DNA of 64,000 bases. It comes from Haloferax gibbonsii ATCC 33959. GTDB taxonomy: Archaea > Halobacteriota > Halobacteria > Halobacteriales > Haloferacaceae. The notes under the pieces were generated by a model, which saw only the letters and a program-made list of their open reading frames with translations, searched no databases and was not told where the DNA came from. Below, piece by piece: positions 6,625 to 23,230 of this stretch (the first letter of the stretch is position 1; each line of letters starts with the position of its first letter). Made by a program: the position numbers and the translations under genes. The stretch is from assembly GCF_000336775.1 (NCBI RefSeq), contig NZ_AOLJ01000018.1:101954-165953 (forward strand), written 5' to 3'.

Positions 6625-6692
6625 AGCGGTAGCGCGGAGGCTCCTTCGTCAACGAACGAGCAAAGCGAGTGAGTAGGGAGGGGAGGAAGCGC
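6625..6692. repeat. TnpB-element left-end-like hairpin inside the origin
   Basis: AGCGCGGAGGCTCCTTCGTC ... GAGTGAGTAGGGAGGGGAGG, then AAGCGC, is a diverged copy of the hairpin upstream of the complete TnpB element (48561-48622) and of 8451-8512. No transposase sequence accompanies it, so it is probably a solo end or a decayed element. A conserved small RNA is the alternative. Confidence 0.5.
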
Positions 6693-6857
6693 GTTCGTTT
6701 CGAGAGCAAACGCTTATTCCGATGCCTCGCCGACCGTGAGTGGCTTTCTGGTCGGTTCGCATTCTGTTTTCTCTAGTCCACGGAACGAGCACGGCGAGGG
6801 ATTCGAGGAGGAGTCGACCGTGGACCCGTTGCCGTACTCAATTGTAGACAGAGGGGG

Positions 6858-6877
6858 ACACCGTCTTGCAAGTGTTT
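6858..6877 (+). repeat. origin recognition box 4 (forward, one mismatch, with G-run)
   Basis: ACACCGTCTTGCAAGTGTTT (one T to C change), preceded by GGGGG; see box 1 for the shared upstream sequence. Confidence 0.75.
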
Positions 6878-6924
6878 CTTGCCGTTGTTGTCCTCGAGCG
6901 ATACGCGGGAAAGGATCGGAAAAT

Positions 6925-6943
6925 AACACTTGGAAAGTGGTGT
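6925..6943 (-). repeat. degenerate reverse origin recognition box 5
   Basis: AACACTTGGAAAGTGGTGT, three mismatches to the reversed core, about 80 bp upstream of the orc1/cdc6 start. Both ends of the box (AACACTT and GGTGT) are intact. Confidence 0.55.
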
Positions 6944-6993
6944 GTTCCACATATAAGAGAGTTACTAACACTTAGAACACTCTGATGGGTGGT

Positions 6994-7003
6994 TTTATAA
7001 ATA
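6994..7003 (+). promoter_or_regulatory. TATA box of orc1/cdc6
   Basis: TTTATAAATA is centred about 26 bp upstream of the ATG at 7024, predicting a leaderless or nearly leaderless transcript. This shows that the longer open frame from 6985 begins inside the promoter and is not the real start. Confidence 0.75.
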
Positions 7004-7023
7004 GGCCTGTCGTATTTAGCGTA

Positions 7024-8205: not shown

Positions 8206-8251
8206 CGAGGGACGCAAATTCGTGTGCGGCTACTCAGCTATATCTTCAGGG

Positions 8252-8271
8252 ACACCGTTTTGCAAGTGTTT
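8252..8271 (+). repeat. origin recognition box 6 (forward)
   Basis: ACACCGTTTTGCAAGTGTTT, an exact core match, 46 bp after the orc1/cdc6 stop. Confidence 0.8.
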
Positions 8272-8334
8272 ACTGGAAAACCCTTACAAGCACAACCGGA
8301 GTTGGCTGCTTGAGCAGGTTTCGAATTGAGAAAG

Positions 8335-8353
8335 AACACTTGCAAAACGGTGT
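8335..8353 (-). repeat. origin recognition box 7 (reverse)
   Basis: AACACTTGCAAAACGGTGT is the exact reverse complement of the core. With box 6 it forms a facing pair. The 50 bp that follow resemble the promoter-proximal DNA after box 5. Confidence 0.8.
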
Positions 8354-8450
8354 GTGGGTGTCGTATAAAGAACCAGAACACACGGAACACATTGGATGGT
8401 GGTGCGATATAGCTCAACCCGTTATGCTGGGGTGCAGATTAGCTGAAAAT

Positions 8451-8512
8451 CAGCGCTAAGCCTCCTTCCTCAAGGAGCGACCGAAGGGAGTGAGTAAGGA
8501 GGGAATACAGCG
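8451..8512. repeat. TnpB-element left-end-like hairpin right of the origin
   Basis: CAGCGCTAAGCCTCCTTCCT ... GTGAGTAAGGAGGGAATACAG can fold through CCTCCTT...CTCA pairing with TGAGTAAGGAGG. It is the same element family as 6625-6692 and 48561-48622. The rest of the 8206-8623 gap, apart from ORBs 6 and 7, shows nothing recognisable. Confidence 0.5.
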
Positions 8513-8623
8513 TTCACGAGAGCAATCATGTGGGCGAACGAGACACAGGGCGTCTCGTCAACGCCGCACGATTAGCAAACACGTTCGACACTCTGCCCAC
8601 AGGCCAACGTTTCACCATAACCA

Positions 8624-8968
8624 TTATCCGAAGATGAACGCGAGCAGTGCGGCAACTGCAAGTATACCGAGACACACCCACAGGAACGATTTCACTGTCG
8701 ACGTGAGAAGCGACGATCCACCGCCTCCATCGGTGTAGCCCATCGATTCGAGGATGTCGGAACCGGTGGTCGACGAACCTGAGTCTCGGTGCCCCTGCGG
8801 TGCGTCCTGTTCGGCAGTCTCTCTGCCGACTGCACTTCCGAACCCGGCACCTGACGGATCTTCCTGGACCAGACGTTCATTAATTGGTTCGGTGACACTA
8901 ATAGTAGTGGCTTCCGAACCGAGCGCGCGAGTCGACCCAGGGAACTCACGACTGAGGTTTGTTAACAA
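8624..8968 (-). CDS. hypothetical protein with C-terminal membrane anchor
   Basis: An open frame of 114 codons ending in a single strong transmembrane segment (SFLWVCLGILAVAALLAFIFG) preceded by a Gly/Ser linker. The only in-frame upstream start is a TTG that lies within a palindrome, with a stop two codons before it. The sole in-frame ATG (8743) gives a 39-residue peptide beginning MGYTDGGGGSSLL. Either the long TTG form or the small tail-anchored peptide could be real. No family recognised. Confidence 0.4.
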   Translation of the reverse strand: MLTNLSREFPGSTRALGSEATTISVTEPINERLVQEDPSGAGFGSAVGRETAEQDAPQGHRDSGSSTTGSDILESMGYTDGGGGSSLLTSTVKSFLWVCLGILAVAALLAFIFG

Positions 8969-8976
8969 TCGTTAAC
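8961..8976. promoter_or_regulatory. palindrome between divergent genes
   Basis: GTTAACAATCGTTAAC has 6-bp perfect arms, about 30 bp upstream of the winged-helix gene at 9005 and over the putative start of the leftward ORF. It is a plausible operator for autoregulation by the 9005 protein; this is inference only. Confidence 0.4.
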
Positions 8977-9004
8977 CGCCGCTGGCACCTAGTGGAATGC
9001 CAGT

Positions 9005-9979
9005 ATGACCGCCGACGAAGCGTCGGAATACGGACCGACACCGGAGCAGGCGTTTGCCGTTCTCGGCCACGAGACGCGGCTCGCGATCCTGTTTGCGCTC
9101 TGGGAACACCGGCGTCTCGACGAACACGTTCCGCAGCACCCGATGACGTTCTCAGCGTTACGAAAGACCCTCGGGATGCGGGACGGCTCGCAGTTCAACT
9201 ACCACCTCAAGCCCCTCCTCGGTCGATTCGTCCACCATGTCGCGGACGGGTACGTGCTCCGACGGGAGGGCGAGCGTGTGGTCAGCGCCATCCTCGCCGG
9301 CGCGTTCACCGACGAACTCGTGTTCGACGCCGTCCCGAACGACAAGCCGTGCGAACTCTGTGGCGGCCGAACCGTCTTCGAGTGCAACACGGAGCTGACC
9401 CGTGGGTACTTCGCGATCAGGTGTACCGAGTGCGACGGAGCGTTCGGTGGCACCGGCTTCGACGGGACGTTGAGCCTGACCGAATCGCTCTCGCCGGTCG
9501 GGACTCGCAGTCGAGACCCCGCGGAGTTCTACCGGGCACTCGACGTCATGGTGAAACACCAGATCATGTCCGCAATCGAAGGCGTCTGTCCCGACTGTAC
9601 CGGCACCACGAGCGCGACGCCCCACGTCTGTCGGGACCACCACGTGGAACCGGGTCACCGCTGTGTGTCGTGTGACACCATCTTCGAGGTCCAGTACGAC
9701 ATCGTCTGTGACGTCTGTCACCAGCGATTCAGTATTCCGAGCAACCGCTGTTTGCTCACCGAGCCGCGAGTGCTCGTCTTCCTCGAAAACCATGGCTACG
9801 ACCCCTGGTACGACTGGCTGTTGATCGAACTGGAATTAGTCCACCGCCAGACCGTTCTTTCGGAGACTCCGTTCGAACTGGAGATGGTCCTCGAGGCCGA
9901 CGGGGACCGACTGGTCGCGACCCTGGACAACAACGGGGCCGTCACAACCCTCTGTAGATGCTCTCGAGAGCAGTCATGA
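9005..9979 (+). CDS. ArsR-like winged-helix regulator with zinc-finger C-terminal region
   Basis: A 324-residue protein. Residues about 12-100 form an ArsR-type winged helix (AFAVLGHETRLAILFALWE, then FSALRKTLGMRDGSQFNYHL). The rest carries several Cys pairs (CELCGG, CTEC, CPDC, CVSCD, CDVCHQRF), indicating at least two or three zinc ribbons. This layout is common among haloarchaeal DNA-binding proteins (DUF7347/DUF7351-type, as I recall) whose ligands are unknown. It is divergent from the 8624-8968 ORF across a palindrome and upstream of a cupin gene with its own ribosome-binding site. Confidence 0.8.
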   Translation: MTADEASEYGPTPEQAFAVLGHETRLAILFALWEHRRLDEHVPQHPMTFSALRKTLGMRDGSQFNYHLKPLLGRFVHHVADGYVLRREGERVVSAILAGAFTDELVFDAVPNDKPCELCGGRTVFECNTELTRGYFAIRCTECDGAFGGTGFDGTLSLTESLSPVGTRSRDPAEFYRALDVMVKHQIMSAIEGVCPDCTGTTSATPHVCRDHHVEPGHRCVSCDTIFEVQYDIVCDVCHQRFSIPSNRCLLTEPRVLVFLENHGYDPWYDWLLIELELVHRQTVLSETPFELEMVLEADGDRLVATLDNNGAVTTLCRCSREQS

Positions 9980-10078
9980 CAGGAGACTCAGGCTACTGAA
10001 TTTCAGTCCGATCCTGGATAGAAATATAATTCAGCTTACATATATGCCCTGAGACGCCGTCAGTACTCACGAGGAGAC

Positions 10079-10678
10079 ATGACCAGATTCGAACCGGTTG
10101 GACGAAGCGCGATTGAACAGCCCGACGGTGTGTTGCGCCGGACCGTGTTGAAAGCCAGTGCCCTGACCGTCGCCGCGCTCGGCACGAGCGTTCCCGTTGC
10201 CGCCGACCCGATAGATCACAACGGCGAATCGAAAGCAGACCGCGACGTCGACAGCCCCGTGGGCTTTACCGTCGACCTCCTCGCAGGGCACGCGCCGTTC
10301 CCCGACGAGGTTGCCGCGACGTTCCGGCTGAAATACGAGGATGGAGACGGAACCATCGTCTCCAATTTGCCACGGGACGCGTCGACGACAGTCTTCGCGA
10401 AGGTGACGTGGGACCCCGAGGGGACCTCGGGCTGGCACACCCACCCCGGACCGGTCATCGTCAGCGTCGTCGAAGGCGAACTCGAACTCATCAACGAGCG
10501 CGACTGCATCACTCGGACCTACTCGGCGGGTGAAGCCTTCATCGACCCCGGGCAGGGAAACATCCACATCGCGTCGAATCCGAGCCAGCGCGACATCGCC
10601 GTCGCCTACGCGACGTTCCTCGGCGTGCCAGCCGGCGCGCCGGCGACGGTGCTGGTGCCTCCGGTGTCCTGTGAGTAG
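10079..10678 (+). CDS. exported cupin-domain protein
   Basis: A 199-residue protein with an N-terminal export signal (LRRTVLKASALTVAALG, twin-arginine-like) and a single cupin barrel: the first metal-site motif around GWHTHPGPVIVSVVEGELEL and the second around EAFIDPGQGNIHIASNPS. The metal ligands His (about 121 and 123), Glu and a late His are present. The enzymatic activity of single-domain secreted cupins cannot be read from sequence. A GGAG-type ribosome-binding site (GAGGAGAC) precedes the ATG, so the transcript has a leader. Confidence 0.82.
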   Translation: MTRFEPVGRSAIEQPDGVLRRTVLKASALTVAALGTSVPVAADPIDHNGESKADRDVDSPVGFTVDLLAGHAPFPDEVAATFRLKYEDGDGTIVSNLPRDASTTVFAKVTWDPEGTSGWHTHPGPVIVSVVEGELELINERDCITRTYSAGEAFIDPGQGNIHIASNPSQRDIAVAYATFLGVPAGAPATVLVPPVSCE

Positions 10679-10827
10679 ACGCTGGGTCCTGCGTATCCAG
10701 CGTCGGGTGTTTGCGTCATGCTCGGCGGGCATTGCGAACTCGGCCGGGCGCCGTGCTGTGTCGTGTGGGTTCGGGAACTGGCGTGCGGTGGCGGCCCGTT
10801 AGCGGGGACGCCGTGGAGCACGGTTCG

Positions 10828-12486
10828 TTACGCTGCTGATTGGTTCCCCGCACCCACGTCCTCGGGTGCCTGCTGGAGCCACGCGTCGAAGTGAACGTTC
10901 GATTGGCCCGCGCTGTTCGGGTCTTCGGAGACGGCTGCACCGCTGCCGTTCGCGAGTGTCCCCGTTTCCGGGTCCGCGAACGGTGCGTCCACGTCCGCGG
11001 CGCTCGATGGCCCGTCGCTCGCACCCCAGTAGTTCGACGTCGCATTCACCACGTCGGCGTTCTGATTCAACACGCCGTACGCGGTGTTGTTGGCGATGCG
11101 GTTGTCGTGGACGGCGACGAATGCAGCGCCCTCGGCCGTGGGCGAACAGACTGCCGACGCCCGAAGGGTGATGCCGTGTTCGTTGTGCTGGATGTCGTTG
11201 CCCTCGACGACGAGGTTGCGGTCGAGCGCCCTGACGAAGATGCCGTCCGTGTTGTTCATGATGTCGTTCCCGCGAATGTCGTTCGCGCGGTCATCAGTCG
11301 AGTCGACGAAGGAGATCTCGACGCCGATTGCGTTGTCTGCAAGCGTGTTCCCCTCGATGGTGTTGTTGTACGAGTTCGCCCGAAGCGACACGCCGACGTC
11401 AGTGTCGGTAATCGTGTTGGCTGTGATCGTGTTGTCCGTCGCGAGTTGGCTCATGACGACTCCGGTTTCCGCCCCGGAAATCGTGTTGTTCCGGACGGTG
11501 TTCGACCCGGCGTTTCGGAGGGCGATGCTCCCGCGTGGCCCCGTACCGGGGTTGGTGAGGACGTTGTCTTCGATGGTCACGGCCGACGCGAACGAGACGG
11601 TGATGTCGCTGTGGGTGAGCGTGTTATTCGCGACGCGCGTCTGGGTCGGGACGCCGCGGGCCAGCCCGACCGCAATCGAGCCGTTCACGACCTCGTTGTC
11701 GACGAGGTGGGTGTTCGTGACGTCATCGGACGCGTGTTCGACGGTGATCGCCCCGTTGACGATGCGGTTCGACGCGACGACGTTGTCGGAACTGCCGTCG
11801 TTCACCGCGGGATCCGAGGTGCGGACCTGAATCGCGTCTCCCGACTCGGCGGTCGCGACCACGTCGTTCCCGCTGACGATGGCGTCGTTGACGGTATCGA
11901 GGCGGATGCCAACCGTCTCGTAGGTCGTGATCGCGTTATCGACGACTTCGATTCGGTTCGACCCCGCTGTGCGGACCGCGCTCTCGACGTGCTCGAAGGT
12001 CGAGTTCCTGACCATCGCTCCGTCTGAAGCGGTCTCGTATCCCGGCCGGGTGTCGAGCGAGCCAACCTGGACGCCGATAGCTGTCTCGGTCACCGTGAGG
12101 TCAGTCGCCGTCGCGTTCGGCGCGAAGACGAAGTTGAGGCCGGTCCCCCAGGAGTCGACGGTGAGGTCGCGGACGGTGACGTTCGCGTGGCCGTCTGCAG
12201 TCCGGTTTTCGGTCTGGTTCGCGTTGACCGCGACACCGTCGCCGTCACCGGTCAGGGTGTGACCGTTCCCGTCGACGACGACATCACTCGATTCGATGTC
12301 GAGACAGGGACTGGCGGTGGCGTTCGTGATGTCGGTCCCGAGCGTGTAGACACCGGGGTCGGTGATGGTGGTACACTCGGTGATCGGCTGTGAGTGAGGT
12401 GTCTGTGCCGTACCAATTGTGGGTGCCGCCGTCGACGCCACTACGAGGGCCGTCACGACGGCGACTGTCGCAAGTAATCGTCGCAT
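10828..12486 (-). CDS. secreted parallel beta-helix (NosD/CASH-type) protein
   Basis: A 552-residue protein with a Sec signal (MRRLLATVAVVTALVVAS) and then repeated beta-helix turns rich in NxI and NTI patterns (GNTLADNAIG, RNNTISGAE, GNDIMNNTDGI, VEGNDIQHNEHGITL), typical of NosD/CASH carbohydrate-binding and sugar-hydrolase folds (PF05048/PF13229). The C-terminal part resembles the ATSNYWGASDGP element frequent at the end of such domains. It is likely extracellular and may bind or cleave surface polysaccharide. No Cu-loading nos genes are adjacent, so a role in nitrous oxide reductase maturation is not implied. Confidence 0.85.
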   Translation of the reverse strand: MRRLLATVAVVTALVVASTAAPTIGTAQTPHSQPITECTTITDPGVYTLGTDITNATASPCLDIESSDVVVDGNGHTLTGDGDGVAVNANQTENRTADGHANVTVRDLTVDSWGTGLNFVFAPNATATDLTVTETAIGVQVGSLDTRPGYETASDGAMVRNSTFEHVESAVRTAGSNRIEVVDNAITTYETVGIRLDTVNDAIVSGNDVVATAESGDAIQVRTSDPAVNDGSSDNVVASNRIVNGAITVEHASDDVTNTHLVDNEVVNGSIAVGLARGVPTQTRVANNTLTHSDITVSFASAVTIEDNVLTNPGTGPRGSIALRNAGSNTVRNNTISGAETGVVMSQLATDNTITANTITDTDVGVSLRANSYNNTIEGNTLADNAIGVEISFVDSTDDRANDIRGNDIMNNTDGIFVRALDRNLVVEGNDIQHNEHGITLRASAVCSPTAEGAAFVAVHDNRIANNTAYGVLNQNADVVNATSNYWGASDGPSSAADVDAPFADPETGTLANGSGAAVSEDPNSAGQSNVHFDAWLQQAPEDVGAGNQSAA

Positions 12487-12622
12487 CCGCGTGGGAGTGG
12501 TCAGTGTTACCGCATTATTATCAGTCGGCTAAGGTCTGCAATTGGGAGGTTTCGCGTGGTGATGCGGGGGTTTGGGTGCATGGATACTCGTTCGGTGGGA
12601 GACGCCTGTATTCGGCACGGTG

Positions 12623-12648
12623 TCACTCGGTGCGAGGTGTGGGGGTCA
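12623..12648 (+). repeat. 26-bp direct repeat, copy 1
   Basis: TCACTCGGTGCGAGGTGTGG followed by GGGTCA, identical to 17690-17715. The gap 12487-12858 holds this repeat and the MITE next to it; I see nothing else in it. Confidence 0.75.
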
Positions 12649-12654
12649 GTCGGC

Positions 12655-12740
12655 CTATAGTAGCGTTTGCAACTGGTTACACATCCAATCGCGCGACAGC
12701 GTGCGATTGAGTGTGCATTGACTTGCAAACGCTACTATAG
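12655..12740. mobile_element. 86-bp MITE with 18-bp perfect terminal inverted repeats
   Basis: The element begins CTATAGTAGCGTTTGCAA and ends with the exact reverse complement TTGCAAACGCTACTATAG. The interior also folds (CAATCGC...GCGATTG within CACATCC...GAGTGTG), so the whole unit can form one long hairpin. It has no coding capacity. It looks like a non-autonomous derivative of a DDE insertion sequence. A target duplication is not clear: CAGTCGGC on the left and CAGTATGC on the right agree at 6 of 8 bases but are offset by one base. Confidence 0.8.
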
Positions 12741-12858
12741 ACAGTATGCGTGAGCTCGTCGACGCTGGTGCTGATTTTGTTGGTGCGGTGCTGCAGACAG
12801 GCCGCGGCTTGGTCCAGACGATAGAAAAGTTCACAGTCAGTAGACATGATCGGAGACT

Positions 12859-13239
12859 ATGAACCGTCGCGCCTTCCTTGGAACTGCTTCTGCAGTCGGG
12901 ATATCATCTCTTTCCGGGTGTGGCACCCTCGAAACGGTCGAAGAACCGTTCGTCACATACCAACTCGACGGGATCTTCACAGACAACGCGGTCGACGAAG
13001 CAATCGAGTTCACAGTGGAGATACTGGATGGAACGGACCCGATATACGACACCACCGTTTCACTCAGTACACTCGGCGCTGACGACGGCGACTCCTCCAC
13101 GGTGATCGAAGCGCCGTGGATGGATGAGAACGCACGGTACGGGATTCGAGTTATTCCTCCCGAAGGTACGCAGACGCCTCGTGGCGACCTGCGCGTAACA
13201 GGAGGACGCCGAGCGCGACGAACCAAACGATCTGGGTGA
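12859..13239 (+). CDS. Tat lipoprotein, probably 3'-truncated
   Basis: The N-terminus is a clear haloarchaeal Tat lipoprotein: MNRRAFLGTASAVG, then the lipobox LSGC (Cys about 21). A beta-rich domain follows to about residue 100. The last roughly 30 codons (TQTPRGDLRVTGGRRARRTKRSG) run antisense through the 3' end of the convergent DUF4386 gene and look like non-coding read-through. The native C-terminus was therefore probably lost at a rearrangement near 13150. Function unknown. Confidence 0.6.
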   Translation: MNRRAFLGTASAVGISSLSGCGTLETVEEPFVTYQLDGIFTDNAVDEAIEFTVEILDGTDPIYDTTVSLSTLGADDGDSSTVIEAPWMDENARYGIRVIPPEGTQTPRGDLRVTGGRRARRTKRSG

Positions 13240-13885
13240 GACCGAAGATGCCACCGCCGATCTCACCGAGCGCTGGAATCGCCGAGAGGATGCCTGCAGC
13301 CCCGACTACGAGTCCGAAATAGTTCACCAGACGGTGGAGCGCTCGTGTCCGGAGCGCGACCACACTCACGAGCAGCGTCCAGAGGCCGCCCACGATCTCG
13401 TTGCCACCGCCCAGCCCATCGATGACCGGGCTGAGTGCCAGCCAGACCGTCGTCGCCTGCGTCGGGTCGGTACTGTAGAGGTTGACGACGACGCCCGTCG
13501 CGAGGGTGGCGACCATCCCGCTGGCGATGACGAGCCCGGCCCAGATGAGTCCGAACGCGGTCGTCGCTCGCATCAACATCGGTGCACCGGCCGCGAGGCG
13601 CTCGTGGAGCGCCAGAACGAGTGCCACCAGCACGATGCCGAAGACCACGTAGATGAGCAGGTACATCGCGGACAGACTCGTCTCGTTCGCGACGAACAGT
13701 TCGACCTGTTGGAGCGCACCGGTGACGCTCGCGAAATCAAGGATGACGAGGAAGTACGCGATTCCGGCCACGTAGATGGCCGCCTCGATCAGCGCAGCGA
13801 GGCCGCCGACCGTCAGATAGTTCCAGCGGCCCACCGTAGGCGACTGCTCGATACCCTCTACTGCTTGACCCGTCGTTGCTACCAT
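13151..13885 (-). CDS. DUF4386 family membrane protein (first copy)
   Basis: A 244-residue polytopic protein with six likely helices (YLTVGGLAALIEAAIYVAGIA, LIYVVFGIVLVALVLAL, AFGLIWAGLVIASGMVATLA and three more). The AFGLIWAGLVIASGM and FVANETSLSAMYLLIY segments fit the DUF4386 family. A second, distant member is encoded at 14817-15614, across a stretch of mobile-element debris. Function unknown. Confidence 0.7.
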   Translation of the reverse strand: MVATTGQAVEGIEQSPTVGRWNYLTVGGLAALIEAAIYVAGIAYFLVILDFASVTGALQQVELFVANETSLSAMYLLIYVVFGIVLVALVLALHERLAAGAPMLMRATTAFGLIWAGLVIASGMVATLATGVVVNLYSTDPTQATTVWLALSPVIDGLGGGNEIVGGLWTLLVSVVALRTRALHRLVNYFGLVVGAAGILSAIPALGEIGGGIFGLTQIVWFVALGVLLLRAGRHEASAYLREE

Positions 13886-14047
13886 ACGTTATCTGCCGCA
13901 GGGACATTACCGCCAGAGGAGATAGCCGTATCGAGTACGACTCTCTCCACCAGCCAGACGCCCCCGAGGTAGTGCGGAGGTACCCGTCGTCGTCGACCGT
14001 GGGTGAGCGCACGCGTCACCAGCGATGGCCTTCGATTGGGCAGCGGA

Positions 14048-14399
14048 CTACCTGAGTGGATTTCGACCGAGCATCGTGGCGATGCCGGCGAGCAAACGCA
14101 GGAGTGGTCGCTGAACCAGCCACGGGACGCCCGCGAGACGCACGTCCGAACGGTAATGAGAAAGGACTGCCGCCACCGCGAACACATCCGGTTTCCCTCC
14201 CGCCACGGCCTCGTAGAGCGCCCGAATTGCGGCTTCGAACTCGCCTGGTGGGCGGAGCGTCGTCCGAACGACGAGGGTGTCGACGCCGCCGTTTCGGATA
14301 CTGTGGGGCTCGCCGGGTGCGATGGTCAGCGATTCGCCGGGAAGCAGGACGTGAGGTTCACCGCGAGTCGTCACCTCTGCCTGACCCGCGATTACGGAA
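14048..14399 (-). pseudogene. cupin-domain gene, 5' end removed by a mobile-element end
   Basis: Reading leftwards from 14399 the frame is SVIAGQAEVTTRGEPHVLLP, then GESLTIAPGEPHSIRNGG, the second half of a cupin barrel, followed by a helical tail to a TAG at 14048-14050. The upstream half of the cupin is missing: coding stops at 14400, where a TnpB-type end (AAGCCCCGTGCTTCAGCGCG) begins. The 108-codon ORF with a GTG start is thus a remnant, not a short gene. A gene of about 150-180 codons would be expected. Confidence 0.75.
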
Positions 14400-14771
14400 A
14401 GTCAAGGAGAAAGCCCCGTGCTTCAGCGCGGGGATGAATCCGACACCCCTTCCACATACGGTGTTCGACGTGTTGAACGGATGTTTTTAAGTAGTCCGTC
14501 AGGGTACTAACATCTATCCGAGGCGGCACGCCCGCCCTACTAATCGGACAATATCGGGATTCCCCGATTCCAAGCAGAAAGCACCCCTTTCTGTGCCGGA
14601 ACACGGGGTGCAGAAAGCAAGTATCTCTGAATCCCTCACGGGATAGGAGTAACGGCTGATTGGCACAGCCAGTAGTTGTCCACACCGGGGGGCTACGAAT
14701 CTTAAACATCCCAACCCAGCGGTGCGGTGCCGTGGGAATCCACGCCCTTCAGGGCGGGGAGGATGTCAAGG
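14400..14771. mobile_element. remnants of two TnpB (IS1341-type) elements
   Basis: The left border carries GAGAAAGCCCCGTGCTTCAG, a hairpin end that faces the truncated cupin gene. The right part (about 14600-14771) is a decayed copy of the 3' end of the TnpB element at 830-992: the shared string ATAGGAGTAACGGCT, then TTGGCACAGCC, with later ATCCCAAC and the end CTTCAGGGCGGGGAGGATGT-CAA. The tnpB frame is broken by stops and most of the gene is gone. The two ends point in opposite directions, so two insertions probably overlapped here. This accounts for most of the gap 14400-14816. Confidence 0.75.
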
Positions 14772-14816
14772 ACACTTTAGAGCACCGTTATGCTGGTTCG
14801 ACACCTCTAGAGGCGA

Positions 14817-15614
14817 ATGGCTGGAGCAGCTGTTACCCCAGATCAGGAGCGGAGCGTCGAGTATCAGCGACCGTCCACAACCGAGACATCTGTCGGGCGA
14901 GCGAGCGTGATTGCTGGACTCGCACTCTTGCTGATGACTGTCCTCGCCGTCTTCGCGAACTTCGTCGTGTTAGACGGGCTCGTTACACGGGGGGACGCTA
15001 CCGGAACGGCGACCGCTATCCTGGGTGCCGAAGGGACATTCCGACTCGGTATCGCGGCGCTCTTCGCGGTCGCCGTACTCGATTTGACCGTTGCGTGGGC
15101 GTTGTACACCGTATTCAAGCCGGTACACGCTGGCGTCGCGCTCCTCTCGGGATGGTTTAGAGCTGTCTTCGCTGGCATCTTCGTCGTTGCAATCAGTCAA
15201 CTCATGAGCGTCCCGCAGCTACTGGGTGCAACCGGGACTGGATTCACCACGGAGCAACAGGCCACTCAGGCACTGCTGAGCATCGAGGCGTTCTACAACA
15301 TCTGGGACGGCGCACTGATTCTGGTCGGCCTCCATCTGGTGTTGGTCGGTTATCTGCTGTACAAGTCTGCGGCTGTCCAGTTCTACACCTCGGGCTACGT
15401 GCCGAAGGTGTTAGGAATGCTCCTCATTCTCGCTGGCATCGGCTACGTGGTGGATAGTTTCGGACGGGTGCTGTTCGCTGGCTACACCTTCGAGGTTGCT
15501 GCGTTCACCTTCGTCGGTGAAGTGTTGCTGATTCTCTGGTTGCTCATCTATGGGCGCCGGATCAGGCTGGACGAGGATAGTGTGGACGACGAGCCGATAT
15601 CCGTGACGACCTGA
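14817..15614 (+). CDS. DUF4386 family membrane protein (second copy)
   Basis: A 265-residue protein with an N-terminal soluble stretch and six helices, including VIAGLALLLMTVLAVFANFVV and GLHLVLVGYLLYKSAAVQF. The pattern (VPQLLGATGTGF... IEAFYNIWDGALILVGLHL... GYVPKVLGMLLILAGIGYVVDS) is characteristic of DUF4386, more so than the first copy. It starts 46 bp after a TnpB-element end, so its native promoter may have been replaced. Function unknown. Confidence 0.85.
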   Translation: MAGAAVTPDQERSVEYQRPSTTETSVGRASVIAGLALLLMTVLAVFANFVVLDGLVTRGDATGTATAILGAEGTFRLGIAALFAVAVLDLTVAWALYTVFKPVHAGVALLSGWFRAVFAGIFVVAISQLMSVPQLLGATGTGFTTEQQATQALLSIEAFYNIWDGALILVGLHLVLVGYLLYKSAAVQFYTSGYVPKVLGMLLILAGIGYVVDSFGRVLFAGYTFEVAAFTFVGEVLLILWLLIYGRRIRLDEDSVDDEPISVTT

Positions 15615-15672
15615 GACCGGGACTTACGGCGATTCGAGGAGAACGCCCACGACTGCGGTCGTGTAGAGGCCC

Positions 15673-15846
15673 TCACACCGTCGAGCGTTCGAGGATATCG
15701 AAGACGTCGACTGCTTTGTACTCCTGGTTGCGCTGTTTTCCGGTTGCTTCGACGATGAGACCGTCTGCTTCCAGCTCCTCGATTGCATTGTACGCCGTCT
15801 GTCGGCTGACGTCAAAGCGTGATTCGACCTCGTTCGCGGTGAAGTG
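15673..15846 (-). pseudogene. C-terminal winged-helix fragment of a Fic/DOC family protein
   Basis: The frame HFTANEVESRFDVSRQTAYN, then AIEELEADGLIVEATGKQRN and QEYKAVDVFDIL to a TGA at 15673 matches the C-terminal HTH that follows the Fic AMP-transferase domain in Fic proteins. The HPFxxGN catalytic domain is absent. Coding similarity stops at 15846, where a reversed TnpB-type right end begins. The fragment has no start codon of its own. Confidence 0.75.
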
Positions 15847-15897
15847 TGACACCCTCCCCGGCGTAAACGCCGGGGCTTCCCACGCATGGGGAATGCC
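15847..15897 (-). mobile_element. solo TnpB-type right end (insertion scar)
   Basis: Read on the minus strand, GGGAAGCCCCGGCGTTTACG then CCGGGGAGGGTGTCA forms a strong hairpin ending in the same GGAGG(G/A)TGTCA terminus as the other TnpB right ends in this window. It abuts the Fic fragment on one side and the BCCT stop codon on the other. No tnpB sequence remains. Confidence 0.65.
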
Positions 15898-15899
15898 AG

Positions 15900-17507
15900 T
15901 TAGTCGTCGTCGATGCTCGACCCTGCCCGGTTCGGCGAACTCGCTGGCTCGGCACCCGTCGAGTCGCTCGTGCCGGAGAGGAGTGGCTCAACCTGATGGA
16001 ATTCCCGGAGCATGCCAGCGATGGCGATGACAGAAATGAGTGCAAATGGGAATCCAGTGATGATTGCCGACGAGCGGAGCGCGTCGATACCGCCACCGAC
16101 GATGAGGAGCGACGCGAGCCCTCCCATGAGGGCACCCCAGATGACGCGGTTGACAGTCGAGGGGTGCTGCTTCCCACCTGTCGTGAGCATCCCGAGGGCG
16201 AGTGTCGAAGAGTCTGCAGACGTGATGAAGAAGGTGACAACGAGGAACAGAAACACGGCCGAAAGCACGCCACCAAATGGCAACGAGCCGAACAACGGGA
16301 AGCCGGAGACGGCAACGCCGTGTTCAGCAACCATCTCGAGCATCGGTGCGATGTTCTGCCGTTCGAAGAAAATAGCACTCCCACCCATCGTGAGGAACCA
16401 CGGCGTGGTCGCAACGGTTGAGCCCACGAGTGCTGTGGCGACGACTTGCCTGATCGTCCGCCCACGTGAGATCCGGGCCACGAAAAGCCCACCAAATGGT
16501 GCCCACGAGAATACCCATGCCCAGTAAAAGACAGTCCAGTTGCCGACCCACTCGCCAGATCCCGTCGCGTTGGTGTACAACGACATCTCGAGGAATCCAA
16601 CGAAGTAGCGTCCCATCGCCTGGAGCCCAGTATTCATGATGTAGTTGGTTGGCCCCAAAAGGAACGTCATGGCCGTCAGGACGGCGAAGACGCCCATATT
16701 GAATCGTGAAATTCGGGCAATACCCTTCTTGACGCCGAGTGCAACCGAGGCGGTGAACGCAACCGTCAGCCCCGTAATTACCAGTACGGTCCCGGTATCA
16801 CCGATCGAGACGCCGAAGTTGTACGTCAGCCCAGTGAGGAACTGCTCCCCGACGAATCCAAGCGTGGTTGCGATCCCACCAATCGTCGCGAACACCGCCA
16901 GTATATCGATTCCCTTCGCTAGAACGCCGTCAAGCTTGTCGACGCCGACGAATGGCGCGATAAGCGTCGACACTCGCATCGGAGCATCCTTCCGGAACGC
17001 GTAGTACGCAATCGGGAGTGCGACGATGAGGTACGGAACCCAGTACGAGATCCCCCAATGAAAGAGGGTGTACTGAATTGCCCCGACCGCCGCGGTCGCC
17101 GATTGGGATTCGCCCCCGATGAGTGGCGGCACCGTCTGGTAGTGACTCAACGCCTCTGCAGGGCCCCAGAAAACGATCCCTGCTGCAATGCCTGCCGAGA
17201 ACATCATCGAAAAGTACGACAGCAACCCAAACTCGGGGTCTTCGTCTGGTTTGCCGAGTTTGATTCGTCCCCACGGACCAACCATCAGCCAGAGGCTGAA
17301 CATGACCATCAGGAACATCGTTCCGATGTAAACCCACATATACTCCGTCCAGAGGAACGTATTGATCTGCCCCATGGCGTTTGCAGATGCAGTCGGGTTG
17401 GTGAAGAACACGACAATCGCGAGCAGCGATACCGAGAATCCAATCCCGAAGATGGTGAAGTCAAGTTCGTCGATGAACCGTTTTATTGGTGTGTTATTTT
17501 CTACCAT
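15900..17507 (-). CDS. BCCT family betaine/choline/carnitine transporter
   Basis: A 535-residue secondary transporter with twelve expected helices. The BCCT signature is present as NWTVFYWAWVFSWAPFGGLF followed by ARISRGRT (about residues 320-347), with the glycine-rich stretch MMFSAGIAAGIVFWGPAEAL near residue 105, where the family's Na+/substrate contacts lie. It would import glycine betaine or a related compatible solute, useful under osmotic stress. The ATG at 17507 gives a normal length. It stands alone, its 3' end touching a TnpB scar. Confidence 0.95.
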   Translation of the reverse strand: MVENNTPIKRFIDELDFTIFGIGFSVSLLAIVVFFTNPTASANAMGQINTFLWTEYMWVYIGTMFLMVMFSLWLMVGPWGRIKLGKPDEDPEFGLLSYFSMMFSAGIAAGIVFWGPAEALSHYQTVPPLIGGESQSATAAVGAIQYTLFHWGISYWVPYLIVALPIAYYAFRKDAPMRVSTLIAPFVGVDKLDGVLAKGIDILAVFATIGGIATTLGFVGEQFLTGLTYNFGVSIGDTGTVLVITGLTVAFTASVALGVKKGIARISRFNMGVFAVLTAMTFLLGPTNYIMNTGLQAMGRYFVGFLEMSLYTNATGSGEWVGNWTVFYWAWVFSWAPFGGLFVARISRGRTIRQVVATALVGSTVATTPWFLTMGGSAIFFERQNIAPMLEMVAEHGVAVSGFPLFGSLPFGGVLSAVFLFLVVTFFITSADSSTLALGMLTTGGKQHPSTVNRVIWGALMGGLASLLIVGGGIDALRSSAIITGFPFALISVIAIAGMLREFHQVEPLLSGTSDSTGAEPASSPNRAGSSIDDD

Positions 17508-17689
17508 TTGTCACGATGTCTTCCGTCATGGCGTCTCAAATTTCGGGTTGAATATGACTCCTGTTTAAGTCAACGCCGGTTCTCGACTGTGCCGGTCTTC
17601 CAACGATTCGAGGATATTGACTACGAATTTACAGTAACTCGCCGGAAGGCGTGTCAATCAGAGAATAAGATGGGAGTCTCGGCTGTCTA

Positions 17690-17715
17690 TCACTCGGTGC
17701 GAGGTGTGGGGGTCA
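17690..17715 (+). repeat. 26-bp direct repeat, copy 2
   Basis: Identical to 12623-12648 and in the same orientation. It lies just beyond the stop codon of the leftward lipoprotein gene at 17722. The pair brackets about 5 kb containing most of the broken genes of this part of the window. Confidence 0.75.
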
Positions 17716-17721
17716 ATTGGG

Positions 17722-18258
17722 TCATCCTGTCGGCGTCCGCTGTTCAATGGCAACGAGTGAGTCGTCGAGTGCTTCGAGAACGTCGCGAGTGCTTGGTTCG
17801 CTCCCCCAGGAGTACCGAGAGGTCGTGGTAGTGAGGCCGACTTTTGCACCGACGACGAGTGATGAGGGTGGTTCGCTCTCGCTGTATCCCTGCGTGTTGA
17901 ACACGTCGTTGAACGCGTCGCTCCGGGCCCACGACAGCCACGTTGTTTCAGCGTTCTCCCCGAGGAGTGCCAGCACTCGGTCGTCGATCAGCCACTCGAC
18001 CGCCTGCGTGGCGTTCGTGTTCGTGTCGTCGGGGAGGACGAGTAAGTCGGCGTTGTGGGGTGCGCTCACCGTCTCGATGTCTGGGGGCATCGAGAGGTCG
18101 ACTTCTTCGGCGACGTACACCGGCGTCACGTCGAGACGCTCGTAGGTTGGCTTCTCAGTGTCTGAATCGTCCGTTTGGAGGGCCAAACACCCAGCGAGTG
18201 AACTGAGAGCCGCGATGCCGCACGCACGGAGGGCGGTCCGGCGGGTGCAGTAGGGCAT
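17722..18258 (-). CDS. hypothetical lipoprotein
   Basis: A 178-residue exported lipoprotein: MPYCTRRTALRACGIAALSS, then the lipobox LAGC (Cys about 23). A mixed alpha/beta domain of about 130 residues follows, with no recognised motif. It is divergent from the epimerase gene at 18446. Function unknown. Confidence 0.65.
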   Translation of the reverse strand: MPYCTRRTALRACGIAALSSLAGCLALQTDDSDTEKPTYERLDVTPVYVAEEVDLSMPPDIETVSAPHNADLLVLPDDTNTNATQAVEWLIDDRVLALLGENAETTWLSWARSDAFNDVFNTQGYSESEPPSSLVVGAKVGLTTTTSRYSWGSEPSTRDVLEALDDSLVAIEQRTPTG

Positions 18259-18445
18259 AGCAGTGAGTTAGTCGAGGGGACTGAAAATGTGTTGGAGAGC
18301 TAACTATATTCGGTTGGTTCTCGCAGGTGACCGTAGTCGTCTCTCGTCTGGTGGACGAATCGTTCCGTGAGTTCAACAGCACGCCCTCGACTGACTCACA
18401 CCAGATTGACGATAGGTTCTTGTCACTTGGCGAGAGCCACCACGT

Positions 18446-19366
18446 ATGGACGGCAAACGAGTTCTCGTTACTGGCGGGGCCGGCTTCATCGGCTCGAATC
18501 TCGCAAATCATCTTGCGGAGGATAACGACGTCATTGCAATCGACGACCTCTATCTCGGGACGCCCGAGAATCTGGATGATGACGTCGAGTTCCACGACAT
18601 GACGGTCCTCGACGACGACCTCCCGACCGAGGGCGTCGACGTGGTGTTCCATCTGGCGGCGCTGTCGTCGTACAAGATGCACGAGGAGAACCCGACGAAG
18701 GGTGCCCGTGTCAACATCGAAGGCTTCGTCAACACGGTCGAGCAGGCGCGAAAGGACGGCTGTGACACGGTCGTGTACGCGACCACGTCGTCGATCTATG
18801 GCTCGCGGACGGAACCGTCGCCCGAGGATATGCCGGTCGAATCGCGGACCGGGTACGAAGCGTCGAAGTTAGGCCGTGAGCGCTACGCGGAGTACTTCCA
18901 CCATCACTACGACATGCAGCTCGCGGGCATGCGTTTCTTCTCGGTGTACCAGGGCTTCGGCGGTGCAGAAGAACACAAAGGCGAGTTCGCGAATACGGTC
19001 GCGCAGTTCACCGACAAAATCGCGAACGGCGAGTCGCCGGAGCTGTTCGGTGATGGGTCCCAAACGCGTGACTTCACGCACGTCGATGATATCGTTCGGG
19101 GGATCGAACTCGCGGCTGACGAGCGGCTCCAGGGCATCTACAACCTCGGGACTGCCGAGAGCTACTCGTTCAACGAGATGGTCGAGATGATTAATGAGGT
19201 CCTCGGGACGGATGTCGAGCCTGAGTATGTGGAGAACCCCTTCGAGGTGTACGTCCACGACACGAAAGCAGACTACTCGAAGATCCACGAGGCGACCGGG
19301 TGGGAACCCCAGGTGTCGTTCGAAGAGGGTGTCGAGCGGGTTTGTCAGCCGTATCTCGACGACTAA
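18446..19366 (+). CDS. NAD-dependent sugar nucleotide epimerase/dehydratase (GalE-like)
   Basis: A 306-residue extended short-chain dehydrogenase. It has the NAD-binding GxxGxxG loop (LVTGGAGFIGSNLA), a Thr/Ser-Ser pair (YATTSSIYG) and the catalytic YxxxK (GYEASKLG). The C-terminal sugar-binding part has ELFGDGSQTRDFTHVDDIVRG. This is the UDP-glucose 4-epimerase/UDP-glucuronate epimerase group; the substrate cannot be fixed from sequence. It would supply a nucleotide sugar for surface glycans, possibly for the locus 9 kb downstream. Confidence 0.9.
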   Translation: MDGKRVLVTGGAGFIGSNLANHLAEDNDVIAIDDLYLGTPENLDDDVEFHDMTVLDDDLPTEGVDVVFHLAALSSYKMHEENPTKGARVNIEGFVNTVEQARKDGCDTVVYATTSSIYGSRTEPSPEDMPVESRTGYEASKLGRERYAEYFHHHYDMQLAGMRFFSVYQGFGGAEEHKGEFANTVAQFTDKIANGESPELFGDGSQTRDFTHVDDIVRGIELAADERLQGIYNLGTAESYSFNEMVEMINEVLGTDVEPEYVENPFEVYVHDTKADYSKIHEATGWEPQVSFEEGVERVCQPYLDD

Positions 19367-19390
19367 CAGAGACTTTCGCGGGAGTGTGTT

Positions 19391-20173
19391 TTAGCGACGC
19401 AGTTCCACCAGCGCTTCGTCACACTGTGGGCAAATGAGTCGCTCGACGGTCACGGACGCACAACACGTCTCGTGAGTCACCTGCTCGTATTCGGTCGGTT
19501 CGTCACACCGAAGGCAGCGGTCAACCGTTGCGCGGACGCTCCGAAGGAGGGCGGCGATTTCGTCCGGCGGGCGTTCGCTCCACCCGGTATACCGTTCCGA
19601 GAGGACCGCTTTCGCCCGAAGGTCTGCGTCAAGCGCAAGCGGTGACGGCCACGCTGCGATAGGGTCGCTGTCATCGGAAAGCGTGTAGCGACCCTGCTGG
19701 CTGGTGAACGAACCGTCGGTCGACGGGAGTTCGAGGACGTCGCGTGCGAGCGAAGCCGATGGCGACTGCGGCGGGTCAACCGCGGCCAGCGACGCTTTGA
19801 ACTCCGGGTCGAGAGCGAAGTCTCCATCCGAGGACTCGCGTAAAAGCCCCTGCGAGAGGAGCCACGCGTCGGTACTCTCGTCGCGTGACGTCAACAGCGG
19901 CTGCTTGCCGAACCACGCGAGGAGCCGTGACGGCAGGTAACGCTTTGTTAGTGCCGGCGTGCCCGGAACGAGGTACCCTCGAAAGTACACCGTCGCGAGC
20001 GCCCCAGTCAACGCCACAAGGGCCGCGACACCGGACAGCGGTATCAAGGCGACCGCGACGAGTACCGAGAGACCAACGTTCACTACCGTACAGGCCCAAC
20101 ATCGGTTCGATCCAGTGTACTCGTCTCGACGCAGTCGGTCACCGAGGCCGTGCGTGATGTGGGATAGAGACAC
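19391..20173 (-). CDS. membrane/zinc protein downstream of halocin gene (candidate immunity or maturation factor)
   Basis: About 260 residues. Near the N-terminus a CWAC motif precedes two membrane spans (VVNVGLSVLVAVALIPLSGV and AALVALTGALATVYF). A soluble middle follows, then a C-terminal Cys cluster (CLRC...CC...CPQC) that probably binds zinc. It starts 18 bp after the halocin-precursor stop. The sequence GGAGCGGTGACATCCGTG places an almost complete anti-16S match ahead of the second GTG (20173), which I prefer over the first GTG (20182). The tight spacing implies co-transcription with the halocin gene. I do not recognise the family; a role in immunity, processing or export is inference. 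Confidence 0.72.
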   Translation of the reverse strand: MSLSHITHGLGDRLRRDEYTGSNRCWACTVVNVGLSVLVAVALIPLSGVAALVALTGALATVYFRGYLVPGTPALTKRYLPSRLLAWFGKQPLLTSRDESTDAWLLSQGLLRESSDGDFALDPEFKASLAAVDPPQSPSASLARDVLELPSTDGSFTSQQGRYTLSDDSDPIAAWPSPLALDADLRAKAVLSERYTGWSERPPDEIAALLRSVRATVDRCLRCDEPTEYEQVTHETCCASVTVERLICPQCDEALVELRR

Positions 20174-20191
20174 GGATGTCACCGCTCCTAC

Positions 20192-21112
20192 TCAGCACCA
20201 GTTTGTCCGGTCAACACAGACCTCTTCGGCGACGGCTTCACCGCATCCGGAGAGGGCGTCGGCCACGTCGCAGATGATACCGACGAAGCCGACACAGGTC
20301 AGACCAGCGATGGGGACTGCGATCCCGGTTAGCCCGCAGATGAACGCACCGGTTGCCGCACAGCCGACGCTACAGGTGAGACCGACGGCGAACCCACAAG
20401 CGTAACAGCCGTCGATGTCGACGTCGTCGTCGAGGAGGTCCCACGCGAGGTTCGTCAGGTCACTCCCCGTGGTGAAGCCGTCGTAAATCTCGTCGATAAC
20501 GGCGTTCGTGTCGACGTTGTTGACGGCCCGCCGAGTCGCATCGGCATCGAGGTTAAGCTCGGTAGACGCCAAGCCATCAGTGTTGTTTGCGGCGGACACC
20601 GTCTGTTCACCAGCGCCGGCGTCGAATCGCTCGATACGAGTGGTGAATCCGTCTTTCGTCTTGTGCGTGTAATCAAGAACACTCAGAATGAGCGAATCTG
20701 ACGTGGCGTCTTCGGCGAGTACGACGGCAGCTTCGGCATTAGGATTCGGGTGCTTGACCGGGTACTCGACGACGTACCGGTGAATCTTCTTGCCGTCCGG
20801 CGCATCGTCGGCGGCGATCTCGACTTCGCCGACGGTGACCGACTTGCCGCGAGACACCGTCCCGTCGCGGGACTTCGCCTTCGCTTCGAGGCGGTCGAAC
20901 TCGGCGGTCTTCGCCAACCGGTTTGCCACTTTCCTCTCATCTTTGCCATCGAGAATGCTGATGTTCTCGGAAGCGACGACGTTCCCAGCGGCGACAGGGG
21001 ACAACGCGAGCCCCGTTCCAACCGCGCCGGCGCGACGAACGAAACTGCGTCGGTTGAGTCCGCTTGTCTCCTGTTCGTTACTGTCGTGTTCGTTGTCGTT
21101 AGCGTGGGTCAT
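20192..21112 (-). CDS. halC8: halocin C8-type microhalocin precursor
   Basis: A 306-residue precursor starting at the ATG at 21112 (a longer open frame to 21226 is upstream noise). The N-terminus is a Tat signal (NRRSFVRRAGAVGTGLAL). The C-terminal 77 residues, from DVDIDGCYACGFAVGLTC onwards, hold ten cysteines and match halocin C8: GCAATGAFICGLTGI, VPIAGLTCVGF and SGCGEAVAEEVC. In the known system a roughly 280-residue Tat-exported precursor is cleaved into a C-terminal 76-residue Cys-rich antibiotic and an N-terminal immunity protein (HalI). Here the pre-halocin segment (about residues 40-228) would be the HalI equivalent. Divergent regulator upstream, co-directional membrane/zinc protein downstream. 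Confidence 0.93.
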   Translation of the reverse strand: MTHANDNEHDSNEQETSGLNRRSFVRRAGAVGTGLALSPVAAGNVVASENISILDGKDERKVANRLAKTAEFDRLEAKAKSRDGTVSRGKSVTVGEVEIAADDAPDGKKIHRYVVEYPVKHPNPNAEAAVVLAEDATSDSLILSVLDYTHKTKDGFTTRIERFDAGAGEQTVSAANNTDGLASTELNLDADATRRAVNNVDTNAVIDEIYDGFTTGSDLTNLAWDLLDDDVDIDGCYACGFAVGLTCSVGCAATGAFICGLTGIAVPIAGLTCVGFVGIICDVADALSGCGEAVAEEVCVDRTNWC

Positions 21113-21298
21113 CGTGTTACCCAATCGACACCATGGCCGGGGCACCCATTGCTTCATGGACCGTTGGAGAGTCGCATCCACTGCAGTAGCTGCGTACGGG
21201 GTGACACAGCGACACAGTAGTTGCACGAATACGTCACGCTCTGCGGAGACGGTGCAGTTCGGAACTGGTGACTGTAATCCAGATTTCAGTCAACAGAA

Positions 21299-22126
21299 AT
21301 GTCATGTTCTGTAGGTCAAAACTCGTCGGTGATGCCGTCTCCAGCCACCGAAGAGATAATCGACCTCGTCACCCGCCGGTGGAACGTCTTAGAGTCGCTT
21401 TCGGATCGTGCATTATCCAAGCCGGAATTAGAGGCGACACTCGAGGTCTCTCGTTCGACGGTAGATCGGGCAATCGGTGAACTCGAAGCGGCGTCGATGG
21501 TCGTCCGCGACCCGTCGAGCGGCTACCAGTTGACGGAGTTCGGTCGGCCGGTGTATCGGCTGTGCAAACGGACTCGACGGTGCCTCGATGCCGTGACTGA
21601 AGCATACTCCCTCGGGTCGGCAGTTCCATCGGGCGCGAACGGCGAGCTACCGATGTACGACGGGGCGACACTCGTGTCCACGGAACCGCACGTTCCAGAC
21701 AAGCCACTGCAGCACCTCCTGGACAGGATGCGCGAGGCGGAGTCACTGCGGGGGTACACCCCGGTCGTGTTACAGCAGTATGTCGAAGTATGCAACGAGC
21801 ACGCCACGCGCCGAGAGGCCGACGTCGAACTAGTCGTGCCTCCACAGGCACATCAGTGCCTGCGGACGACGTATCCCGACGAGTACCAACGCGCGCTTCG
21901 GACCTCACGTGTTCGCCTCCACGAAACGGCGGCCTCGCTGCCGTTCGGACTGCTCGTTTTCGATGAGAGAGCGAATCGGACGTGCGCGCTTGTGTCGTAC
22001 TCGAAGGCCGGAGCGACGGGCGTGCTGTTCAACGATACGACCTCGGCGATTGGTTGGGCGACGCAGACGTATCGCGAACTCAAGGCAGATTCGACCCCAG
22101 TCGACCAGCCGAAGGCGACGCACTGA
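21299..22126 (+). CDS. winged-helix transcriptional regulator divergent from the halocin gene
   Basis: A 275-residue protein, or 264 residues if started at MPSPATEEI (21332). The N-terminal winged helix reads LSKPELEATLEVSRSTVDRA then IGELEAASMVVRD; a C-terminal domain of about 150 residues resembles the sensor part of haloarchaeal TrmB/IclR-like regulators (DUF1724-type). It shares the 190-bp intergenic region with the halocin precursor gene, so it probably controls it. The stop codon TGA at 22124 is the first base triplet of a TnpB-type end (TGACATCCTCCCCGC), so the native C-terminus may have been trimmed slightly. Confidence 0.8.
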   Translation: MSCSVGQNSSVMPSPATEEIIDLVTRRWNVLESLSDRALSKPELEATLEVSRSTVDRAIGELEAASMVVRDPSSGYQLTEFGRPVYRLCKRTRRCLDAVTEAYSLGSAVPSGANGELPMYDGATLVSTEPHVPDKPLQHLLDRMREAESLRGYTPVVLQQYVEVCNEHATRREADVELVVPPQAHQCLRTTYPDEYQRALRTSRVRLHETAASLPFGLLVFDERANRTCALVSYSKAGATGVLFNDTTSAIGWATQTYRELKADSTPVDQPKATH

Positions 22127-22165
22127 CATCCTCCCCGCACTAACCAACGGAGGGTTCTCCATACT
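22124..22165 (-). mobile_element. solo TnpB-type right end (insertion scar)
   Basis: On the minus strand the sequence ends GCGGGGAGGATGTCA, identical to the right end of the TnpB element at position 992. The hairpin ahead of it is partly decayed (AACCCTCCGTTGG). It sits between the regulator and the Xre gene and contributes the regulator's stop codon. Confidence 0.6.
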
Positions 22166-22182
22166 TCTCCGTAACCGTGCGC

Positions 22183-22383
22183 TCATCCGTCAAACTCCGG
22201 TGAAAACAGCTCTTCGACGGAACAATCGAAATAGCGCGCGAGCTTGAACGCGAGTTTGAGCGACGGGTCGTACCGCGAGTGTTCGATGGCGTAGATGGTC
22301 TGTCGGCTGACGCCGACCGCAGTCGCCAGCTCCGCTTGAGTGATGCGTTCTTCCGCTCGCTTTACTCGGATGTCGTTTTCCAT
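22183..22383 (-). CDS. Xre-type HTH regulator
   Basis: A 66-residue single-domain Cro/C1 helix-turn-helix protein: MENDIRVKRAEERITQAELA then TAVGVSRQTIYAIEHSRYDP and LKLAFKLARYFDCSVEELF. This compact form is the YgzD/HTH_3 type that is commonly encoded with small membrane proteins. It is the last gene of a three-gene leftward operon (5-bp gap to the preceding gene), where it may act as autoregulator. Confidence 0.92.
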   Translation of the reverse strand: MENDIRVKRAEERITQAELATAVGVSRQTIYAIEHSRYDPSLKLAFKLARYFDCSVEELFSPEFDG

Positions 22384-22388
22384 CGATG

Positions 22389-22784
22389 TCAGACGCGCTG
22401 TCGGAGTTCGGTCGCGCCGAGGACACAGAACACCGTCCCGAGACCTGCGACCGCGAGGAAGGTGACTGCGCTCGGGACCTGCTGGGTACTGAGAGCGTAC
22501 GACGCGAACAGGCCGACTAGCGACGCGAGCATGACACCCCCGGTCGTACTGAGAGCACGGTCGATGTTTCGCACGTCGCGCTCGTCAACCACGTTGTCGG
22601 AGGGCGACTCACCTCGAACGACGTATCCGACGTTCGCGAAGACGGTGATGACCGCAGGAACGACCACTAACTCACCGACCGAGGGAGAAGTGTCCACACC
22701 GAAGAACGGCGGCACAACCGCCAGCAGGAGCGCCGGAACGACGAACAGCAAGAAACTGTACGTCGGCGGGAGCCACCGCGACAT
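22389..22784 (-). CDS. four-helix membrane protein of an Xre operon
   Basis: A 131-residue protein with four helices (YSFLLFVVPALLLAVVPPFFG, ELVVVPAVITVFANVGYVV, MLASLVGLFASYALS and AVTFLAVAGLGTVFCVLG). Adjacency to the Xre gene recalls the DUF2178 membrane-protein/HTH pairs of archaea, though I cannot confirm the family. It is separated by 1-2 bp from the gene before it. Confidence 0.68.
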   Translation of the reverse strand: MSRWLPPTYSFLLFVVPALLLAVVPPFFGVDTSPSVGELVVVPAVITVFANVGYVVRGESPSDNVVDERDVRNIDRALSTTGGVMLASLVGLFASYALSTQQVPSAVTFLAVAGLGTVFCVLGATELRQRV

Positions 22785-22785
22785 T

Positions 22786-23016
22786 TCACTGTCCCCCGCT
22801 TCCGAACTCGCTCGACAGGATTCCGGGCAGGTCGGTCAGCCAACTGATGACCGCACAGACGATCATCACGCCGACCGCGGCCATATAGCCCCACACCGTA
22901 ACCGTGTCGAGCACGAAGTCGATTGCGACGAATCCCGAGAGGATGACAGCGCCGCTGATCGCCGCCGCAACGACGACGAGCAGCGCCGAATACGCACGCA
23001 CCGGACTGTTTACCAT
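22786..23016 (-). CDS. two-helix membrane protein, first gene of the Xre operon
   Basis: A 76-residue protein (from MVNSPVRAYSALL) with two or three hydrophobic segments (LVVVAAAISGAVILSGFVAID and TVWGYMAAVGVMIVCAVISWL). The internal ATG at 23016 is preferred because a TATA-like ATATAC lies about 25 bp upstream of it. The longer open frame to 23073 would cross that promoter. Function unknown. Confidence 0.62.
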   Translation of the reverse strand: MVNSPVRAYSALLVVVAAAISGAVILSGFVAIDFVLDTVTVWGYMAAVGVMIVCAVISWLTDLPGILSSEFGSGGQ

Positions 23017-23230
23017 ACGAAAAAAGTGTATATTCAACAACATAAATGTAATGGCTACTTTCCATAATGACAAGAAGGTACGTCATCCAGTCGATGACGG
23101 TAGCGACCACAGCAGTGACTCTCACCGAGTTCGCAACCCCTGACAACGCAATGCGCGATTCGAACGGGCAGGAGCTGGGCGTCCCGATCGTTCGATTCGC
23201 TGTGGTGTCTTGACGTGTTGCTTCAGCTGC

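Follow-up and report, generated by a model that had tools for sequence, protein, structure and literature searches.

Does the halocin C8-type gene in this stretch of Haloferax gibbonsii DNA belong to a working microhalocin locus, and what does the membrane protein encoded just downstream of it contribute? To address this we analysed the whole stretch of 64,000 nucleotides, referred to below as the window. Halocin C8 has been described as a single gene for both production and immunity. A first-pass annotation had proposed three genes here, a precursor, a membrane/cysteine-cluster protein and a winged-helix regulator, and all three were found where it had placed them. The genome carries one halocin C8-type gene. 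The features of the locus are as follows.

20192..21112, minus strand: halocin C8-family precursor, 306 aa, from ATG 21112 (TIGR04449 46.9 bits, PF22862 139 bits)
20969..21112, minus strand: Tat signal region, residues 1-48, GLNRRSFVRRAGAVGTGLALSPVAAG (RR motif and hydrophobic stretch)
20426..20968, minus strand: HalI-type N-terminal (putative immunity) domain, residues 49-229 (PF22862, hhalign, structure model)
20195..20425, minus strand: mature ten-cysteine microhalocin domain, 77 aa (TIGR04449; ten cysteines aligned; dN/dS 0.037)
19391..20182, minus strand: partner protein, 263 aa, two membrane helices (29-45 and 51-71) and a zinc-ribbon-like cysteine set (alignment; structure model)
21265..21296, no strand: imperfect palindrome with 15-nt arms and a 2-nt spacer, candidate operator (shuffles; orthologues)
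21299..22126, plus strand: FilR1/HVO_A0261-type winged-helix regulator, whose start may be M12 at about 21332 (PF08350, PF25213)
22183..22383, minus strand: XRE/HTH_3 protein, 66 aa (PF01381; cassette alignment)
22389..22784, minus strand: membrane protein, 131 aa, cassette member (cassette alignment)
22786..23073, minus strand: membrane protein, 95 aa as an open reading frame and 76 aa in the annotated orthologues, cassette member (cassette alignment)

The most likely start of the precursor is ATG 21112, which matches the start annotated in both Haloferax orthologues (L135 and L136); the mechanical open reading frame start at 21226 is less likely. Inspection of the signal region revealed NRRSFVRR followed by a hydrophobic stretch, and a Tat-type RR motif with a hydrophobic stretch is common to most halocin C8 family members. 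The signal sequence behind the original claim of a Tat-exported precursor is therefore present, with export itself predicted from it. The N-terminal part of the precursor scored 139 bits against PF22862 (Halocin 8-like N-terminal domain, cut-off 27) and was matched by profile-profile comparison (hhalign) to the canonical ProC8-group N-domain (96.8%, E 2.5e-10), in agreement with the HalI domain proposed earlier. The predicted structure of this domain begins with helices at residues 56-67 and 70-81 (pLDDT >90), followed by a beta-sheet. A helix-loop-helix at the start of HalI is reportedly needed for immunity, as the title of Mei et al. 2008 has it. A fold search of the precursor against the PDB returned no match with E <0.001, no relatives were found in the viral contigs searched and the region upstream of the gene showed no clear TATA box.

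The C-terminal domain matched TIGR04449 (halocin C8-like domain) over the full model (1-69) with 46.9 bits against a cut-off of 24. The alignment of the last 77 residues to halocin C8 homologues that had been proposed as a check was run, and all ten cysteine columns aligned at 58-61% identity to the canonical halocin C8 group, confirming the ten-cysteine, halocin C8-like C-terminus. The cysteine spacing was 2-7-3-7-13-7-8-8-6 as compared to 2-7-3-7-13-7-8-8-5 in the canonical group, the only change being one extra residue before the last cysteine. The chance of ten cysteines in 77 residues was about 2e-10 (binomial, at an assumed 0.7% cysteine), and the calculated oxidised mass of the mature part was 7545 Da. 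Selection was measured by the Nei-Gojobori method using the window and its H. lucentense and H. alexandrinus orthologues, resulting in a dN/dS of 0.037 for the mature domain, whereas the N-domain gave 0.21-0.22 and the partner 0.28. Purifying selection acts strongly on the mature part, and the peptide is the most constrained portion; long-range conservation mirrors these values, with the N-domain only about 30% identical to the canonical group.

As the family models, the ten cysteines, the Tat signal and the HalI-type domain were all found, the precursor is a halocin C8 family member by every feature testable in sequence. The ProC8 precursor is 283 aa with a mature part of 76 aa and is encoded by halC8 of strain AS7092 and Natrinema (PMC11509114), and the full-length precursors at L064-L067 share this length of 283 aa. 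We used canonical-type loci from Natrinema altunense, Haloterrigena salina and others for comparison. Halocin C8 shares with the window the Tat precursor, the HalI-type N-domain and a C-terminal ten-cysteine domain with like spacing, and differs in the sequence of both domains, in the extra residue noted above and in the absence of a coupled 263-aa partner from its canonical loci. The halocin C8-like proteins of Haloferax larsenii and Halobacterium plasmids also combine this N-domain family with a C8-type C-terminus, but the H. larsenii-type mature part has eight cysteines and an acidic tail whereas that of the window has ten. In this eight-cysteine type a 68-aa small protein lies downstream in place of the partner, and no FilR1-type neighbour was found at the H. 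larsenii locus, unlike in the window. The idea of a new microhalocin variant had to be reduced to that of a diverged member of an already curated family (TIGR04449, PF22862), whose orthologues are annotated as halocin C8-like.

In the plasmid collection no relatives came closer than these orthologues (WP_006600928.1), which are encoded on Haloferax lucentense pSVX82-2 and H. alexandrinus pBNX82-2 and show 91% identity by tblastn. DNA homology to the two plasmids was confined to a single block at 19391-23146 with about 90% identity, ending at the partner stop codon. When 12 kb of the window was compared with the orthologue plasmid regions nothing aligned outside this block, and the same six-gene block sits at a different replicon site in those plasmids. 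As its flanks are unrelated to the orthologue plasmid regions, the block behaves as a cassette. It spans 3.75 kb and contains the partner, precursor, regulator, XRE protein and two small membrane proteins, so the minimal gene set assumed at first was too small. Among the 15 Haloferax genomes of the whole-genome set the cassette was found in the window's own genome only. Searches with window positions 1-19380 and 23150-48000 ranked other plasmids best, mostly through transposon or transporter gene matches. TnpB/transposase-like elements common to many haloarchaeal plasmids lie at 1-993 and about 47110-48000. The XRE protein and the two small membrane proteins (22183-23073) may form a second immunity or regulatory unit.

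The divergent gene scored 104.5 bits against PF08350 and 54.6 bits against PF25213, both over the gathering score, and is separated from the precursor by 186 nt of intergenic region, in line with the reported winged-helix regulator sharing a promoter region with the precursor. The palindrome at 21265-21296 was matched by 0 of 500 mononucleotide shuffles and is nearly unchanged in the two orthologues, and may serve as an operator. No comparable common repeat was seen at the other FilR1-linked halocin loci, and a palindrome shared with them was rejected as a candidate. A FilR1-type regulator also lies directly upstream at the canonical-type loci L064-L067 and L075, although there it is co-directional. 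Using a profile built from the window regulator, a FilR1-type relative was found directly upstream of the halocin gene at 13 of 59 halocin C8-type loci (5 of 37 clusters). As each of the eight genomes examined has 2-13 FilR1_middle genes, chance adjacency is estimated at roughly 0.2 in 59 loci.

The partner begins close behind the precursor. The spacing had been put at 18 bp, but we measured 9 nt between the precursor stop (20192-20194) and the partner GTG (20180-20182), with a GGAG ribosome-binding-like motif between them. The frame from this GTG takes in the invariant N-terminal motif of the partner family, YTGxNRCxxCTxxN. The precursor-partner arrangement in the pSVX82-2 and pBNX82-2 orthologues is essentially as in the window, and the annotated orthologue partners lose the conserved motif because RefSeq starts them later. 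The partner carries a CxxC at the N-terminus and a CxxC-CC-CxxC at the C-terminus, with a soluble domain after the membrane helices, which form a hairpin in the predicted structure (pLDDT 83). Searches against Pfam, NCBIfam, PADLOC, PHROGs and the PDB gave no match that was convincing or over threshold, the fold search against the PDB gave none with E <0.001, no named zinc-ribbon or oxidoreductase family exceeded the threshold in profile and fold searches, and the anti-phage defence models gave no convincing match. With two helices, the cysteine set and no family over the cut-off, the description as an unrecognised membrane/cysteine-cluster protein still applies. The window partner and its relatives at L031-L060 define a family of two-helix, zinc-ribbon-like proteins with the motif YTGxNRCxxCT...RGYLVPGTP, and this family is without a Pfam or NCBIfam model. 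The upstream genes at 30 partner loci were unrelated, and the idea that partner genes generally lie beside cysteine-rich precursors was rejected.

The partner family was present in 350 of 382 haloarchaeal genomes with 1-8 copies each, and so is not halocin-specific. This leaves room for a real microhalocin accompanied by a passenger, namely a diverged copy of the common family, co-transcribed with the precursor, with a role in housekeeping or regulation that has nothing to do with the peptide. Because the family is near-universal and mostly found beside unrelated genes, the link between partner and peptide comes down to one orthologous cassette and an ambiguous second locus, L114. At this locus, in genome G058 (L114/L156), a divergent FilR1-type regulator (41% identical to that of the window) is followed by a halocin C8-type gene, a 123-aa gene and a partner relative, and the halocin part has lost cysteines and the Tat signal. 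In G392 (L154) and G167 (L155), from species related to G058, only a broken halocin gene or a remnant of it is left, and the 123-aa gene and partner are kept. As the pair stays where the halocin gene is broken, it is not dependent on the peptide, which favours the passenger role and makes L114 weaker as independent evidence that halocin and partner are linked, the partner there being paired with the 123-aa gene. A common origin of the window and G058 partners was not supported by the tree. Against a passenger stand the close spacing, which is kept in the orthologues despite a divergence of about 10% elsewhere, the purifying selection on the partner (dN/dS 0.28) and the very long branch of its own that the window copy forms in the tree (2.37 changes per column), suggesting a specialised copy. 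We consider a passenger role quite possible, if somewhat short of an even chance. Separately, the partner relatives at L100 and L109 come from two different families and form one well-supported clade, with a halocin C8-type gene about 2 kb from each, in differing arrangements.

We surveyed the genes downstream of 59 halocin C8-type loci (L061-L118 and the window; 37 clusters at 50% identity). A same-strand membrane protein of less than 160 aa (57-152 aa) started within 220 bp downstream at 27 of the 59 loci and 19 of the 37 clusters, as compared to 17 of 279 control genes (6%) at these loci using the same search (Fisher p = 9e-13 by loci). Membrane proteins were favoured when the downstream reading frame was chosen, a rule that was applied equally to the control. 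At seven further loci of the 59 the small membrane protein was convergent. The two-helix partner of the window fills the slot of these proteins, suggesting a shared role. It could then be an immunity or membrane-protection factor, functionally equal to the small two-helix proteins at other halocin C8-type genes, as its slot, its helical hairpin and the over-representation of small membrane proteins in that slot would indicate. However, the precursor already has a HalI-type domain, and the small proteins were not significantly commoner at loci without one: a test of exclusion resulted in a nominal p = 0.008 by loci at one threshold, 0.12 by clusters (strict) and 1.0 by clusters at a loose threshold, and mutual exclusion of the two was rejected as not significant by clusters or at the looser threshold. 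An immunity factor of this kind is possible but rather unlikely. A broader joint reading, which we hold to be more doubtful still, is that halocin C8-type loci are generally two-component, with a precursor and a downstream membrane hairpin for immunity or maturation, and that a diverged two-helix/zinc-ribbon copy was recruited to this slot here together with a FilR1-type regulator.

The peptide type is already known, and what stands out is the coupled two-helix/zinc partner, together with the repeated occurrence of FilR1-type regulators and of small membrane genes at such loci. The survey suggests that a second component, bound to the membrane, exists in many relatives alongside a recurrent FilR1-type regulator, which opens immunity and control in archaeal antimicrobials to direct tests. 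It also highlights a membrane/zinc family that is present in more than 90% of the haloarchaeal genomes searched and has no Pfam model.

Membership of the family, the order of domains and genes, the selection acting on the mature part and the cassette can be read from the DNA itself. The microhalocin locus is real, conserved and probably functional, and its family is known. The remaining steps, from export and cleavage through activity and immunity to regulation and the role of the partner, we infer as follows. After synthesis in the cytoplasm, the precursor would leave the cell through the Tat pathway. Cleavage near residues 229/230, a site assumed from halocin C8, would set free a peptide of 77 residues, hydrophobic and acidic, with up to five disulfides holding it together. 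This peptide would inhibit related haloarchaea, and the N-terminal HalI-type domain would protect the producer. The divergent FilR1-type regulator would control the intergenic region that it shares with the precursor, with the palindrome at 21265-21296 as the probable site of action, and the translationally coupled, two-helix zinc-ribbon-like partner would most likely help at the membrane in immunity or maturation. Taken as a whole, this account of a microhalocin on a six-gene cassette is one we hold with fair confidence.

Activity has been shown for few family members and the family is very diverse, falling into 37 clusters within 59 loci, which would fit a self-acting signal or stress peptide with the halocin C8 fold that is not antimicrobial. 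The identity of 58-61% to the canonical group and the retention of all cysteines and the HalI-type domain argue against such a peptide, making it improbable. A silent or decaying remnant, of which L114, G392 and G167 provide halocin C8-type examples, is hardly credible here given the mature-domain dN/dS of 0.037 and frames that are intact in three strains.

Among the surveyed loci, L062, L063, L069 and L084 form a distinct ten-cysteine halocin C8 subgroup in which a four-helix protein of 120-125 aa comes after the halocin gene and a transporter-like membrane protein of 529-539 aa comes next.
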